64,000 nucleotides of DNA, from positions 744,001-808,000 of the forward strand of contig NZ_CP097128.1 in NCBI RefSeq assembly GCF_023330685.1. The letters run 5' to 3'. The DNA comes from Conexibacter sp. DBS9H8. Its GTDB lineage: Bacteria; Actinomycetota; Thermoleophilia; Solirubrobacterales; Solirubrobacteraceae. The position numbers and the translations under genes are program-made. The notes under the pieces are model-generated. The model made no database searches. It worked only from the letters and a program-made list of their open reading frames with translations, and was not told the origin of the DNA. Of the stretch, positions 48,536-57,908 are shown piece after piece; position 1 is the first letter of the stretch, and each line of letters starts with the position of its first letter.

Positions 48536-48538
48536 GTG

Positions 48539-48760
48539 ATGGCACGAATCTCAGCCAAGAACCAGATTACGGTTCCGGTGGCAACCCTCCAAGAGGTCGG
48601 CCTGCACGCCGGCGAGCACGTCACGGTTGAGCCGGCGGGTGACGGAGAGCTACGGATCCGCCGGGCCACGTTCACGTTCGAAGACGCGTTCGGAGCGCTC
48701 ACGGGAACCTACCCGGCCGGCTACCTCGATCGCCTTGACGCTGAGGACGCGGCGAGATGA
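48539..48760 (+). CDS. AbrB-family (VapB-type) antitoxin
   Basis: 73 residues: a SpoVT/AbrB DNA-binding fold (MARISAKNQITVPVATLQEV, then GLHAGEHVTVEPAGDGELRI) and an acidic C-terminal tail (FEDAFGALTGTYPAGYLDRL) that would clamp the toxin. ATG at 48539 is preferred over the adjacent GTG because of spacing to AAAGG. The stop overlaps the toxin ATG by 4 nt. The protein would repress its own promoter through the CTTTAC/GTAAAG dyad just upstream. Confidence 0.85.
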   Translation: MARISAKNQITVPVATLQEVGLHAGEHVTVEPAGDGELRIRRATFTFEDAFGALTGTYPAGYLDRLDAEDAAR

Positions 48761-49149
48761 AGCGACTACTCGATGCGGACGTGCTGATCGGCGCCCTCGA
48801 CGCGAACGACGCTCATCACATCCACGTTCGGGAGCTCCTCACCGGTTGGCGCGAGAACAGGGACCAGTGCGTGGTGAGCGTTGTGAACCTCACCGAAGTG
48901 CTGATCGCACCCTCAGCCGATGTGGCCCGTCTCGCCGCCGCGCGTGAGGCCATCGCCGCGCTCGGGATCGCTGTCCACCAGCCAAATGAGGCGATCGGAG
49001 TCGAGGCTGCACGCCTGCGACGGCGCTACCCGATCAGCCTCCCCGACGCCTATTGCCTCGCGACCGCGAAGCACACCGGCGGGGCGCTCAGTTCCTTCGA
49101 CGAGAAGCTCCTCAATGCAGCCGGCCGCGAGCAGATCACCGTCAGCTGA
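48757..49149 (+). CDS. PIN-domain toxin (VapC-type ribonuclease)
   Basis: 130 residues with intact PIN acidic residues: Asp in RLLDADVLIGALD, Glu in VVNLTEVLI, Asp in SLPDAYCLATAKH and Asp in LSSFDEKLL. These metal-dependent RNases cut tRNA or rRNA when released from the antitoxin. Start overlaps the antitoxin stop (ATGA), giving a standard toxin-antitoxin operon. Unlike the decayed pair next to it, this module appears functional. It sits between the Wadjet operon and arfB in the accessory zone. Confidence 0.85.
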   Translation: MKRLLDADVLIGALDANDAHHIHVRELLTGWRENRDQCVVSVVNLTEVLIAPSADVARLAAAREAIAALGIAVHQPNEAIGVEAARLRRRYPISLPDAYCLATAKHTGGALSSFDEKLLNAAGREQITVS

Positions 49150-50804: not shown

Positions 50805-50912
50805 GGGGTCCGGAGGCTACCTTCGTCCGTCCCGGCGAACAGCGGTCACCTCCGTCGGGCCCACGGAGCCACGTCTGCCGACGTGCCGAGCTCAGCGCGC
50901 TCGTAGGACTGA

Positions 50913-50955
50913 TGGACCCTACCGGGATCGAACCGGTGACCTCCTGCGTGCAAAG
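50913..50955 (-). repeat. Duplicated tRNA-Ala 3' half (far att site)
   Basis: 43 bp identical to the anticodon-to-3'-end part of the complete tRNA-Ala(UGC) 2.6 kb away, in the same orientation. It lacks the 5' half, so it is not a gene. Such partial tRNA copies mark the far end of elements integrated into a tRNA 3' end. Confidence 0.9.
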
Positions 50956-51060
50956 AGCCGAGAGGTGCTGTGCTTTTGCCGATCGGTCAGGGTCGGTTTG
51001 CGGCGCCGCGACGGGCTGAATGGAGCTGGCGGGCCGCTGGCGGTTGCTCGACGATGAATG

Positions 51061-51081
51061 AGGCTTCCTTGCAGCTTCCAT
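51061..51081 (+). repeat. 21-nt motif near the far end of the island
   Basis: AGGCTTCC-TTGC-AGCTTCCAT. The same motif with a different 4-nt centre occurs near the tRNA end, in the same orientation. It could be an integrase arm-type binding site. Confidence 0.4.
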
Positions 51082-51155
51082 TACGCAGGAGGTCACTCGC
51101 CGATCGCCGTTCACGTTAGCGGCGTGGAATCAGGGAGCGCGGCGGCGCTCTTTGA

Positions 51156-52589
51156 TCAATACGGTCGCAGTGCGGCGCGGGCGAGCTCTCGCGCGGTCGG
51201 GCTGAGTCGCCATCGGTCGTGGGGTCCTGTCTCGGGTTCTGAGGCGTTGCGCAGGACGCCCATGGCTGTCAGCCAGTAGAGCTGGTGATCCTTGATTGGG
51301 CTTCTGGTGCTCCTACGCCAGCCAAGGTGCGTCAGTGCTTGGGCGATCGCGTCGAGCGGTAGATCTCCGTGGGAGGACGTGGCTGCGAAGAGCAGGAGAA
51401 GCAGGGTGGCGTCGGTCTCGAATCCGTCTTTGGTTGGTACGAGCCGGTCGGCAAGGTGGCTCCAGAGTTCCTCCCACGCCTCGGCCGCGTTCTTCCCGGC
51501 GCGCGTCAGGCGGAGAGTGCCCTTGAGCTTCCGTATGAGTCCGAGCGACTGCAGCGCTTCGCGAAAGCGGAGAACCGGGAGCGTGTCGCTCTCTCGATTG
51601 GCCTTCCCGATCCAGCTGGCCATCGTTGGCAGCTGTGCGGCGGTCGCTTCGACGTCAGTCGGTCGGAGGTAGCCAGCGGCGGTGAGCGTGAGGCCGTCGT
51701 TGCCGACTCGATCGAGAAACCACGTGATGGGCTTGAGAGACGCGCGGAAAGCGGCATCGTCAGGGACGGGCCGGTCTCCGAGCAGCGCGTAGGCAGCTGC
51801 CGTGATGTCCTCCCCGACAGCTGTGTAGGCGAGTCGGTAGACGAGATCAGCAAGTCGACGGTCGAACCCCGCTTGGGTGAGGAGCAGGAACGGATCGCGG
51901 AGTGCTTCGTTGACTTCGGTCAGTGAGAAGGCGGACGGGTCTTCGAGCACGTCCGCGAGTTCCTCTGCCGTTCGCAGGCTGCCGCAGTCCTCTGGCGGTG
52001 CGGCACGTCGGCCGTCGATCGCGACCGCCGCCGGTGCGTCGAGGCCCGCCTCCAGGACGTTCTCGAGTCGCAAGAAGAGTTCCCAGTTGTCGCCGTAGTC
52101 GTAGATGTAGGAGAGCACATCGCCCGGGGCCTGGACCGTCTCATCCAGGCGGACGCGACTTGCTGGAACGCCGCCTTCATCATCGAGCTCGCCCTCATCG
52201 ACGTCCCACTGGCACAGGAACACTTGGCTGGCGGAATCGAAGGGATCTCCGCCGAGGGAAAAGCGCCACAAATGCGTGTCGGTCCAGTTGAACGCCGCCT
52301 GCAGCACACGGTGGAGAACGTCGAGCGTGAGATCGGAACGGAGCTCAAGCCGTCGCCAGATCGGAGGCTCGGCGTGCTTGAGGTCGACCCTGACACGGAA
52401 GAGCCTCAGGTCCGAGAGCGGCGGCGGACGCAACTCAGGCCGTTTTGGCCGTGCTCGTTCCCGACGCGCTTGCGCGCCGAGCACCGATAGATCGGCGGCC
52501 ATCTGGCGGAGGTCGTCAAGTTCGGCGCCGCTGATCACCGCTTGGAACCGTCGTAACAGCTCCGCCTGAGGGTCTTCGTCGATGCCCAT
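51156..52589 (-). CDS. pRiA4b ORF-3-like (IS1096 TnpR-like) protein
   Basis: 477 residues from the ATG at 52589. After a helical N-terminus (QAELLRRFQAVISGAELDDL) comes the plasmid pRiA4b ORF-3 domain: LFRVRVDLKHAEPPIWRRLE, DVLHRVLQAAFNWTDTHLWR and VLSYIYDYGDNWELFLRLEN. The remaining 250 residues are helical, with winged-helix-like parts, and may regulate or bind DNA. The domain's function is unknown; it is spread by plasmids and transposons. It is divergent from the NYN gene with an 80-nt spacer, the usual arrangement for a co-regulated pair. It is the main cargo of the tRNA island. Confidence 0.8.
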   Translation of the reverse strand: MGIDEDPQAELLRRFQAVISGAELDDLRQMAADLSVLGAQARRERARPKRPELRPPPLSDLRLFRVRVDLKHAEPPIWRRLELRSDLTLDVLHRVLQAAFNWTDTHLWRFSLGGDPFDSASQVFLCQWDVDEGELDDEGGVPASRVRLDETVQAPGDVLSYIYDYGDNWELFLRLENVLEAGLDAPAAVAIDGRRAAPPEDCGSLRTAEELADVLEDPSAFSLTEVNEALRDPFLLLTQAGFDRRLADLVYRLAYTAVGEDITAAAYALLGDRPVPDDAAFRASLKPITWFLDRVGNDGLTLTAAGYLRPTDVEATAAQLPTMASWIGKANRESDTLPVLRFREALQSLGLIRKLKGTLRLTRAGKNAAEAWEELWSHLADRLVPTKDGFETDATLLLLLFAATSSHGDLPLDAIAQALTHLGWRRSTRSPIKDHQLYWLTAMGVLRNASEPETGPHDRWRLSPTARELARAALRPY

Positions 52590-52670
52590 GCGGAAACCGT
52601 AACGGCTGTCATTTAGACGAGTGGGCCGCCGGCTTCGGTCGTTGACAGGGCGGGCTGCCAAAGTGCGCCA

Positions 52671-53381
52671 GTGCCAAACGGTCGGCGACCAACCGCCTCG
52701 CTCTATCTCGATCGCCTGAATCTGTACAGGCGACTCCTGGCCGGCTACCCGCAGCATAAGTGGCTGGACATCGAAGCCCTCGGCGAGCAGGTGATGCCGG
52801 AGTACGACCTCGTCCGAGTGCGCTACTTCACGGCCGTGATCAAGCCGTTGCCAGGGGCCGACGTCAGGGCTCCGCAGCGCCAGCAGGCATATCTACGCGC
52901 GCTGGAAACGCTGCCGCGCACGACCATCCATCTGGGGAAGTTCCGCGTCGATCCTCGCGTGATGCCGCTTCATCCGACCCGGTATGACGAGGCCGGCGAA
53001 CCAGTCCGGGTCACGGTGAAGAAAACCGAGGAGAAGGGTTCTGATGTGGCCTTGGCGAGCATGCTGCTTGTTGATGCCATGCGCGGTGACTGTGACGTCT
53101 ACGCGGTCTGTACGAACGACTCGGATCTGACGATGCCGCTCCGACTTGTACGCGAGGAACTGGGCCGGCAGGTCGGTCTCATCTCACCGATGCAACCGAA
53201 GCGAGCGAGTAACGAGCTGAAGCGGACCGCGCCGACTTGGCACCGCCAAGTCACCCCGGAGATCCTCGAAGCCTCGCAACTACCGGACGAGATCAGAGAC
53301 TCAGTTGGCGTTATCCGGCGCCCGCCGGAGTGGTCCAGAAATTCCGAAGGCCCCGCCGAAGCGAGGCCTTCTAACCAGTAG
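52671..53381 (+). CDS. NYN-domain (PIN-like) nuclease-type protein
   Basis: 236 residues from a GTG. The NYN/LabA-like fold is clear: ASLYLDRLNLYRR (first Asp and Asn), then EKGSDVALASMLLVDAMRGD and CDVYAVCTNDSDLTMPLRLV with the remaining acidic residues. NYN proteins are predicted metal-dependent RNases and occur in several phage-defence and toxin modules. The C-terminal 40 residues are polar and probably flexible. Being one of only two genes in the island, it may be the active part of a defence or maintenance cargo; this is inference. Confidence 0.8.
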   Translation: MPNGRRPTASLYLDRLNLYRRLLAGYPQHKWLDIEALGEQVMPEYDLVRVRYFTAVIKPLPGADVRAPQRQQAYLRALETLPRTTIHLGKFRVDPRVMPLHPTRYDEAGEPVRVTVKKTEEKGSDVALASMLLVDAMRGDCDVYAVCTNDSDLTMPLRLVREELGRQVGLISPMQPKRASNELKRTAPTWHRQVTPEILEASQLPDEIRDSVGVIRRPPEWSRNSEGPAEARPSNQ

Positions 53382-53439
53382 CCGAAGCATCTGGGGATGT
53401 GCTCTTAAGCCTAGCGCCGGGAGCAAGGCCGACTCGAGC

Positions 53440-53460
53440 AGGCTTCCAAAAAGCTTCCAT
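53440..53460 (+). repeat. 21-nt motif near the tRNA end of the island
   Basis: AGGCTTCC-AAAA-AGCTTCCAT, matching 17 of 21 positions with the copy at the opposite end of the island. The location 74 nt from the tRNA 3' end is suitable for an integrase arm site. Confidence 0.4.
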
Positions 53461-53533
53461 GGAGGCATTACCGCGACTCAGGAGTCAATGGCCAGAAGCG
53501 CGAATTGCCCGTACTTACAGGCAATCGTACTAA

Positions 53534-53606
53534 TGGACCCTACCGGGATCGAACCGGTGACCTCCTGCGTGCAAAGCAGGCGCTCTCCCAGCTGAGCTAA
53601 GGGCCC
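53534..53606 (-). tRNA. tRNA-Ala (anticodon UGC)
   Basis: 73 nt with a full cloverleaf: a 7-bp acceptor stem including the alanine-specific G3:U70 pair, D-arm GCTC/GAGC, anticodon loop TTTGCAC (anticodon TGC), variable loop AGGTC, T-arm with TTCGATC loop, and discriminator A. CCA is not encoded. The 3' half is duplicated 2.6 kb away, marking an integration site. Confidence 0.97.
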
Positions 53607-56918: not shown

Positions 56919-57908
56919 TCAGCCCTCGAAATCGAAGTCCGGCGGGGGCTTCTGCTCGAACCAGAGCCGGTCGTGGTCGGGAGTGTCGGCGAGGAACTCG
57001 GGGGTCTCCTCCAGCAGATCCGGACCCTCGGCGGGGGCGGGCTCGCCGCTCGAGTCCTCCTCATCGAAGATCCGCTCGACGTCATATTCGGCCGTCTGGC
57101 CCGGCTCGTGCTCGGGGCGGATCTGCAGCGGTGGCGGACCCCCGGCGTCGGTCGGCTCGGAGGAGGCAGCCGCCTGGTCAGATCGTGGTCGGCCCGTCTC
57201 GGGATCCGCCACGCCCATCTCATCGAGTGGGAGCGGAAGCACCGGCTCAGCCCCTGCGGACGGCTCGGCTGGGCCCGCCTCGGCCGCCGCGACGACCGGG
57301 TCGATCCCGATCCGGACATCGTCGCGGGGGTGCTCGGGGAAGGGGCCGTCGTCGGCGAACGGATCGTCCTCGGCGAAGGCGCCGCCGTCGTCGTGGTCAT
57401 GGTCGTGTTCGTGCGAGCGCCGGTGAAACAGCCCGCGGAGGCGATGGCGCGGCTCCCGGGAGGACGTGATGTCGCCGGCGTGGAACTCGTCGAAGTCCGG
57501 GTCGCTGTAGTCGGGGGAGGCGATGCCGCGAGCCGGCTCGGCGGGGAATGCGTGCTCGGAGTCGGCGTCGCTGAGGCTGGGGTGCAGCATCGTCGGGGAG
57601 TCCGCCTCGCCGGGATCGGAATCGTCCGCTCCGCCACGATCGAAATCGTTTGCGTGCCCGGGCAGATCGCCGCCGGTGAAAGGGTCCGCCTCCGCGACGG
57701 TGAACTCGTCCTCGTCAGCGAAGTCGTCGTGGTCGGGGACAGTGTGAGCAAAGGCGGGCGGGGGCCCGTCCAATCCGCTCGGCATCGTCGGCTCACGCCG
57801 GACGGGACCGAGCGCTTCCCGTTCGGCGCGTTCGATCTCCGCCGGATCGGCGCCGCGTCGCCGTTTGAGATCGAGGTGCTCGCGGATCGCGTCGTCCAAC
57901 AGGCCCAT
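56919..57908 (-). CDS. Acidic, mostly disordered protein with conserved-looking ends
   Basis: 329 residues. The N-terminal 40 residues form a charged helix (MGLLDDAIREHLDLKRRRGA, then DPAEIERAEREALGPVRREP). The middle 240 residues are Asp/Glu/Pro/Gly-rich and likely disordered, including a His/Asp run (HEHDHDHDDGG) that could bind metal. The last 25 residues (EFLADTPDHDRLWFEQKPPP followed by DFDFEG) look like a structured or docking motif. I know no function. It could be a scaffold or division-linked protein; that is a guess. Confidence 0.7.
   Translation of the reverse strand: MGLLDDAIREHLDLKRRRGADPAEIERAEREALGPVRREPTMPSGLDGPPPAFAHTVPDHDDFADEDEFTVAEADPFTGGDLPGHANDFDRGGADDSDPGEADSPTMLHPSLSDADSEHAFPAEPARGIASPDYSDPDFDEFHAGDITSSREPRHRLRGLFHRRSHEHDHDHDDGGAFAEDDPFADDGPFPEHPRDDVRIGIDPVVAAAEAGPAEPSAGAEPVLPLPLDEMGVADPETGRPRSDQAAASSEPTDAGGPPPLQIRPEHEPGQTAEYDVERIFDEEDSSGEPAPAEGPDLLEETPEFLADTPDHDRLWFEQKPPPDFDFEG

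Follow-up and report, generated by a model that had tools for sequence, protein, structure and literature searches.

A small integrase-less island at a tRNA-Ala gene of Conexibacter sp. DBS9H8, carrying an NYN-domain gene paired with a structured RNA: a candidate toxin–antitoxin-like cassette

The island and its tRNA locus

The DNA considered here, called the window in what follows, is a stretch of 64,000 nucleotides from Conexibacter sp. DBS9H8 (contig NZ_CP097128.1, positions 744,001 to 808,000); its subject is a small island at a tRNA-Ala gene, and in particular the NYN-domain gene that the island carries together with a short structured RNA encoded beside that gene. The intact tRNA-Ala(TGC), the integration target, was located by ARAGORN on the minus strand (53534..53606). 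A direct repeat of 48 nt (98% identity, 2,621 from start to start) bounds the island: the attR core (53529..53576, minus strand) takes in the tRNA 3' half and 5 further nucleotides, and the attL core (50908..50955, minus strand) is a copy of that half, mismatch-free over 44 nt, 43 of which lie inside the tRNA. An earlier sequence-only reading had pointed to this flawless 43-bp copy, lying 2,621 bp away in direct orientation, and the repeat search confirmed it.

Between the repeats lie two divergent genes. On the minus strand a pRiA4b ORF-3-like gene (51156..52589) matches Pfam family PF07929 at 4.8e-41, and on the plus strand the NYN gene (52671..53381) matches PF01936 at 9e-7; with the ATG at 52589 chosen as the start of the minus-strand gene, the gap between them is 81 nt. 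NCBIfam assigned no family to the window proteins. No integrase was found inside the island, either by Pfam on both genes or with an integrase profile built in this analysis, in agreement with the early description of the content as these two genes alone. The GC content of the island is about 0.61–0.66, that of its immediate right flank 0.71–0.74 and that of its left flank 0.65–0.72. Three matches only to the island stretch occur elsewhere in the 3.64-Mb single-contig genome (79–81%), at the tRNA end.

The pairing of the two genes, which the sequence-only reading had offered as a possible module, did not hold up. Of the 60 relatives searched, three have an NYN relative, and in none were the two genes seen side by side; in one of the three (G038) the NYN relative and weak pRiA4b matches lie on different contigs. 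In the genome of the closest pRiA4b relative (59% identity, G012) no NYN relative was found, nor any tRNA in the 20 kb that surround the gene. Among 80 NYN loci, whose flanks were read for 5 kb at most, the sole pRiA4b-like neighbour is a 28% match directly after the NYN gene of a Bacteriovoracaceae (L232). That the two proteins form a module, as their divergence over 81 nt and the case of L232 might suggest, is in consequence very improbable. Because NYN is rare in the relatives and the closest pRiA4b relative sits in another genome, we conclude that the cargo was acquired by this lineage.

Arm-type sites and a family of related islands

A 21-nt repeat lies near both inner ends of the island, and reading the relatives allowed us to deduce from it the pattern GCTTCCA-N4-GCTTCCA. 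At attR the site is exact (53442..53459, plus strand) and lies 75 nt inward from the 3' end of the tRNA; at attL it carries one mismatch (51063..51080, plus strand), 108 nt inside the tRNA copy, and a 14-nt inverted copy of the tRNA core (51083..51096, plus strand) comes directly inside it. Exact matches occur in 33 of the 101 genomes of a first set. Of 232 genomes of the order, 49 have exact sites, 84 in total; the pattern read backward gives 13 sites. One of the 84 (G223) falls outside the fetched loci, which leaves 83 distinct exact sites as the sample; 66 of these stand no further than 200 nt from a tRNA 3' end or a tRNA copy, all in a common orientation. In 29 of 36 cases the distance to an intact 3' end or an attR-like copy is 70–75 nt, and in 22 of 30 cases that to an attL copy is 106–109 nt; the targets include tRNAs for Ala, Val, Thr, Glu, Ile, Gly, Ser, Asp and Arg. 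We read this spacing and orientation as the arm-type-site geometry of a tyrosine integrase. The other 17 sites (L104 to L175) had no assigned tRNA; some may belong to tRNAs missing from the tRNA library, or to other targets. The island and its arm-type sites are established from sequence, and site-specific integration at the tRNA, already proposed from the repeat, gains strength from the presence of such sites at both inner ends.

The locus made of tRNA-Ala(TGC), a conserved open reading frame (56919-57908) and tRNA-Ala(CGC) is orthologous in the genus. In the 14 relatives for which it was obtained with an intact tRNA, the arm motif is found at the attR position in four, and the tRNA-Ala site therefore seems to have been used repeatedly. 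In this comparison with related genomes, which had been called for, the motif is absent from the remaining ten.

A plausible source of the integration machinery comes from a same-genus relative, where a locus (L058, in G001) combines an intact integrase, an NYN gene and a tRNA-Ala copy with its arm site. Relatives of this integrase, 57–76% identical and some of them partial, are present in 13 of the 27 same-genus relatives (G001 is one of the 13). The genome of the window has no close one: the best match by E-value is 29% identical, and a short part of another gene reaches 38%. Within 5 kb inward of the 66 tRNA-linked arm sites, a reading which may extend beyond the end of a small island, an intact integrase of the family was seen at 8 and a partial or other integrase at 8; none was seen at 23 sites with at least 5 kb read, nor at 27 with less. 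Integrases at the tRNA copies of L060, L062 and L063 were regarded as of a different type and set aside.

Five islands have both arms and no integrase by profile. Besides that of the window these are L057 (2,069 bp, with an NYN gene of its own and HNH_2, one arm having two mismatches), L147 (2,510 bp, at tRNA-Ile), L167 (2,996 bp, at tRNA-Ser) and L112 (4,783 bp, at tRNA-Gly, again with two mismatches in one arm). Islands were listed where a tRNA and its copy, reaching the tRNA 3' end, lie on one contig, and short ones are over-represented since most relatives are fragmented. Their cargo varies, being mostly unrelated among the five; ten open reading frames of island cargo were given to Pfam, none from L112 or L145. 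In L113 and L162 both arms enclose integrases that are solely broken or partial. In L107, which adjoins an incomplete tRNA-Thr, an intact integrase accompanies two arm sites spaced about 9.8 kb apart; it is the sole complete integrase-bearing example seen. Islands with a single arm also exist, such as L176 with its Mrr_cat gene. A relative of the window NYN, 81% identical over 116 residues with the front part absent, lies at a tRNA-Val in another genome (G008), next to an exact arm. In the genome of the window itself, at 442259, an arm-like site with one mismatch stands 76 nt from a copy of tRNA-Ile(GAT) and an integrase of another kind lies on its other side (L156); a newer element may have displaced an older one here.

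The NYN protein and its RNA

The NYN protein of the window matches, over residues 11-222, the PADLOC model PDLC04163 (HEC-09) at 4.5e-32, and that of L057 does so at 8e-36. Its AlphaFold (AF2) model has a mean predicted local distance difference test score (pLDDT) of 91.6. A structure search with this model gave five matches at E ≤0.001 (the NYN domain of MARF1, PDB 5yaa and 6fdl, and VPA0982, 2qip), at 11–14% identity, with no ToxN-type entry among the 50 matches listed; a sequence search of PDB with the NYN profile gave no match. In an alignment of 51 proteins, from which rows with stops or frame breaks were omitted, D14, N17, E121, K122, D125, D150 and D152 are invariant and are kept in the window. 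The fold and the acids D14, E121, D125, D150 and D152 predict an endoribonuclease.

We had considered NYN as a general marker of attachment sites and rejected it: among the 80 loci a tRNA or tRNA copy was found in 14 and an integrase match in 7. With so few of either, NYN looks like common cargo rather than integration machinery. Among particular loci, that of an uncultured actinobacterium (L178) has NYN with its RNA and, close by, an integrase match and a pair of tRNA-Thr copies separated by 1.9 kb, and in three Chloroflexi or Dehalococcoidia loci (L207, L210, L219) a tRNA-Gly(TCC) lies some 690–850 bp upstream of the NYN gene.

On the minus strand, convergent with the NYN gene whose reading frame enters it, cmsearch and folding place a small structured RNA (53406..53335), made of a hairpin followed by a terminator-like hairpin. 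It matches our second covariance model at 2.6e-15, as the single match listed for its own genome, and folds at -29.8 kcal/mol (z -3.5). As read, the architecture extends over some 60 nt: a C-run at the 5' end, a hairpin often closed by UUCG, then the terminator-like hairpin. The double hairpin was first spotted in the sequence after NYN genes, and a first covariance model was made from 17 sequences. We initially took the hairpins for a 3' untranslated region on the NYN strand, a view that was replaced once the alignment showed upstream copies and promoter-like sequence on the opposite strand.

The association with NYN is tight. In 78 of 83 NYN sources the RNA lies within 250 nt of the NYN gene, 73 of these at E ≤0.001, and when the 17 training sequences are left aside the count is 61 of 66. 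Omitted from the 83 are L196 and L211, which share contigs with L057 and L058, and L208, taken as a duplicate of L206 on account of the same stretch after NYN, their NYN DNA not being identical. The 84 hits divide into 46 where the RNA is upstream of NYN and on its strand, 36 where it is downstream and convergent, and two second copies that point away, so that 82 face NYN. The link also appears from the other side. When only the RNA model was run against 396 genomes of the phylum, it matched 34 times in 31 genomes, 19 of these matches being at E ≤1e-8. Of 17 strong loci inspected, 13 have an NYN gene as neighbour, or 12 of 16 once the window, the sole model-training locus, is excluded; none of the 13 inspected out of 15 weak ones has such a neighbour. 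Taken together, these counts support well the view of NYN and RNA as a genetic unit, their link and the structure of the RNA being established at the level of sequence.

The RNA covaries strongly. In 59 aligned sequences, 19 of 20 pairs changed on both sides; such cells number 190, where shuffles give 56. The covariation score is 0.526 against 0.215, none of 500 shuffles scoring as high. Pairing holds in 90.7% of cells, against 39–49% for slid structures; the structure was derived from the same sequences, which favours it over its slid versions, and kinship can lift scores above shuffles. The number of pair types nevertheless goes far beyond both. Upstream of the RNA, sigma-70-like promoter scores average 8.67 against 6.92 in single-base shuffles, and 52 of 75 items have a -10 box 15–17 nt away from where the model starts; nine of the 84 hits had been dropped for this count, and 16 more for the alignment of 59. 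In the window the candidate -10 box, placed from its position in the relatives, is TAGGCT (53408..53413, minus strand), without a good -35 box. Among 4227 Rfam models run on 12 sources at E up to 1, none matched at a window-type RNA.

Mobile relatives widen the picture. NYN relatives are present in 440 of 72,556 plasmid records (207 from Klebsiella, 46 from Escherichia) and in 3 of 50,697 phage records, and 15 of these loci were examined. The window-type RNA lies downstream of NYN and converges on it in a Paenarthrobacter plasmid (L290) and a Mycobacterium prophage (L291), and L300 has a weak one (E 2.5e-4); an E. coli plasmid of 3.5 kb (L287) and Leptospira weilii (L295) have it upstream, at 6e-8 and 1e-8. 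In the E. coli plasmid pUN_J9_5 (L288, 4.6 kb) and in a K. quasipneumoniae plasmid (L289), 33-bp repeats in 3.5 and 3.8 copies respectively are followed by a terminator and then by NYN, whereas repeat arrays of period 25–60 occur in 1 of 139 control windows. By eye, the hairpin of this type is found once upstream of NYN in plasmids of Phaeobacter (L292) and Acetobacter (L294), and a different hairpin, repeated in a K. pneumoniae plasmid (L293), occurs as a single copy in Thiothrix (L299). Upstream of NYN in L293, Rfam gave mir-24 (E 0.018), mir-374 (E 0.94) and STnc50 (E 0.43), far below the gathering score. A terminator-like site precedes NYN in 9 of the 15 loci, against 43 of 267 random windows; L301 has no terminator, and its RNA match is at chance level.

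Readings of the cassette and known systems

What would be the role of such an assembly? The island is probably an integrase-less cargo cassette of the type named cis-mobilisable element (CIME), from a family of tRNA-targeting integrative elements, in which a tyrosine integrase of the arm-site family would bind the attL and attR cores and the two arm repeats. Its main cargo would be the NYN-fold ribonuclease with the RNA of about 60 nt encoded beside it and read toward it, the RNA restraining the nuclease much as in a type III toxin–antitoxin system; loss of the RNA, or phage attack, would free the nuclease, and the carrier would be stabilised or the host defended. We infer that the RNA is transcribed and acts as an antitoxin by binding and inhibiting NYN, that NYN is a toxic ribonuclease, and that the island can still move in trans. 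More broadly, and tentatively, with somewhat less than an even chance of being right, the HEC-09-type NYN nucleases, together with related ones on plasmids, may form a so far unrecognised multi-phylum class with RNA antitoxins of several types, carried on tiny integrase-less tRNA islands that would be moved by the integrases of relatives having the same arm sites. The RNA types proposed are the UUCG hairpin of the window, the CCTACGGCGTGCCGTAGG hairpin of the E. coli, Phaeobacter and Acetobacter plasmids (by eye), and GCGATTnAGTTACGC in Klebsiella and Thiothrix (by eye).

Several observations weigh against this reading. In the genome of the window the arm pattern, with at most one mismatch, occurs in three places, two of them in this island, and its backward control in five; with the control exceeding the pattern the count is uninformative, position alone being informative. 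The attL arm has its mismatch, and the sister islands L103, L113 and L162 contain integrase fragments, which fits decay no less than mobilisation in trans. Five of the 83 NYN sources (L064, L195, L198, L215 and L231) have no RNA within 250 nt; L064 is a distant NYN paralogue of the window's own genome, and an unfiltered scan with the second model gives weak matches near NYN in L195 (E 0.064), L198 (1.4e-4) and L231 (0.0018). Conversely, four of the 17 strong RNA hits (L262, L267, L269, L272) have no NYN match within about 1.5 kb on each side, and in L263 and L268 the RNA is retained beside a broken NYN gene. In the window the RNA has a weak promoter and is a single convergent unit, not a series of repeats upstream. 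In the Pseudomonas strains studied, finally, HEC-09 correlated with phage susceptibility, not resistance, in the parts of the study drawn on here (PMC12447246), a result that weighs against simple protection and less against a stabilising role.

Both a remnant and a minimal passenger, the two alternatives raised by the sequence-only reading, are compatible with island ends that lack an integrase. It is about an even call that the island is a decayed relic, its integrase deleted, its att and arm sites not yet eroded and its cargo useful or harmless. The lack of a close integrase relative in the genome, the attL mismatch and the broken or partial integrases of the sister islands all fit such a history, as do the elements of other families that we read as accreted in tandem beside old ones in L123, L128 and L156, and the definition of CIMEs as having lost integration and transfer genes while keeping attL and attR, as given in the portions of PMC5704250 used here. 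Deletion alone would not predict, however, that five integrase-less islands keep both arms around mostly unrelated cargo, and the near relative of the window NYN beside an exact arm at tRNA-Val in G008 also speaks against it.

The RNA could for its part act on the NYN gene as a regulatory element or terminator, the shared double hairpin ending or attenuating transcription. In line with this, a T-run comes after the NYN-proximal hairpin in 68 of the 84 hits (a raw count), and the window NYN frame extends into the element. A terminator could dispense with the distal hairpin, yet all nine of its pairs show changes on both sides; promoter-like sequence is directed at the RNA, and the hits face NYN whether upstream or downstream, so that we hold this account unlikely. 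Slightly less likely still, we think, is that within a defence complex the RNA guides the nuclease, or serves it as cofactor or substrate, instead of inhibiting it. The place of HEC-09 among the defence candidates of PADLOC and the MARF1-like fold would suit it, and so would L268, where the broken NYN adjoins a gene read by eye as a presumed DNA methylase. It accounts poorly for RNAs kept where NYN is broken or not found, and for upstream repeat arrays with a terminator, which is the layout of an antitoxin.

If the RNA does restrain NYN, as the preferred toxin–antitoxin-like reading has it, RNA-antitoxin systems would extend to a new nuclease fold and to several phyla, reaching even tiny plasmids in E. 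coli and Klebsiella, and the matter could be tested in E. coli. The arm-site motif, moreover, provides a handle on integrase-less tRNA islands that integrase-based searches overlook, and lets one ask how often movement in trans occurs as against decay in place. Two neighbouring loci may be mentioned as well. Between 42587 and 47826 of the window a large SbcC-like gene (PF13558) precedes a DUF3323/DUF2399 gene, an arrangement that we take to resemble part of a Wadjet-type (JetABCD) system. To the left of the island (48536-49149), a MazE-like antitoxin gene, below the Pfam cut-off, overlaps a PIN-domain gene, a possible toxin–antitoxin pair.

How do these elements compare with known systems? The NYN model has a common fold with the NYN domain of MARF1 and with VPA0982, at the low identity given above, and MARF1 has further domains. 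With HEC-09, a candidate defence gene of PADLOC-DB, the likeness is the match of the window and L057 proteins to PDLC04163, a model of the protein alone that does not include the RNA partner. A term search of the PADLOC paper's main text (PMC8565338) finds Hma but neither HEC nor NYN. Among the matches listed from the open PubMed Central literature, none describes an NYN toxin with an RNA partner, which is no proof of absence.

As an island, the element resembles the CIMEs described in PMC5704250, in the portions already referred to: at the 3' end of a tRNA it keeps attL and attR (the 48-nt direct repeat and two arms at the family spacing), and its two genes, with PF07929 and PF01936, leave the inside without integration or transfer genes. 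It differs by its very small size and by its recognisable arm-site family, several members of which have no detected integrase. With miniature inverted-repeat transposable elements (MITEs) and clusters of attC sites lacking integrases (CALIN), as treated in the sections of PMC11389934 considered here, it has in common that it is non-autonomous DNA whose ends are those recognised by a recombinase that is absent. In this case the recombinase would be a tyrosine integrase that targets tRNAs and has arm sites, and whole genes make up the cargo.

As a gene pair, the cassette is best set beside the type III toxin–antitoxin systems ToxIN, CptIN and TenpIN, again as described in the parts of PMC5086642 drawn on here. 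A structured RNA lies beside a predicted ribonuclease gene, and in the upstream layout it is on the strand of NYN. The toxin candidate has the NYN fold, unlike ToxN, CptN or TenpN; the RNA is mostly a single unit, as in the window, where it lies downstream and convergent rather than in an upstream operon, a layout common to the 36 convergent hits. Since type III loci have the order repeats, terminator, toxin gene, the likeness is partial in the window and close in the E. coli and K. quasipneumoniae plasmids, where a tandem array of period 33 and a terminator precede the NYN gene.

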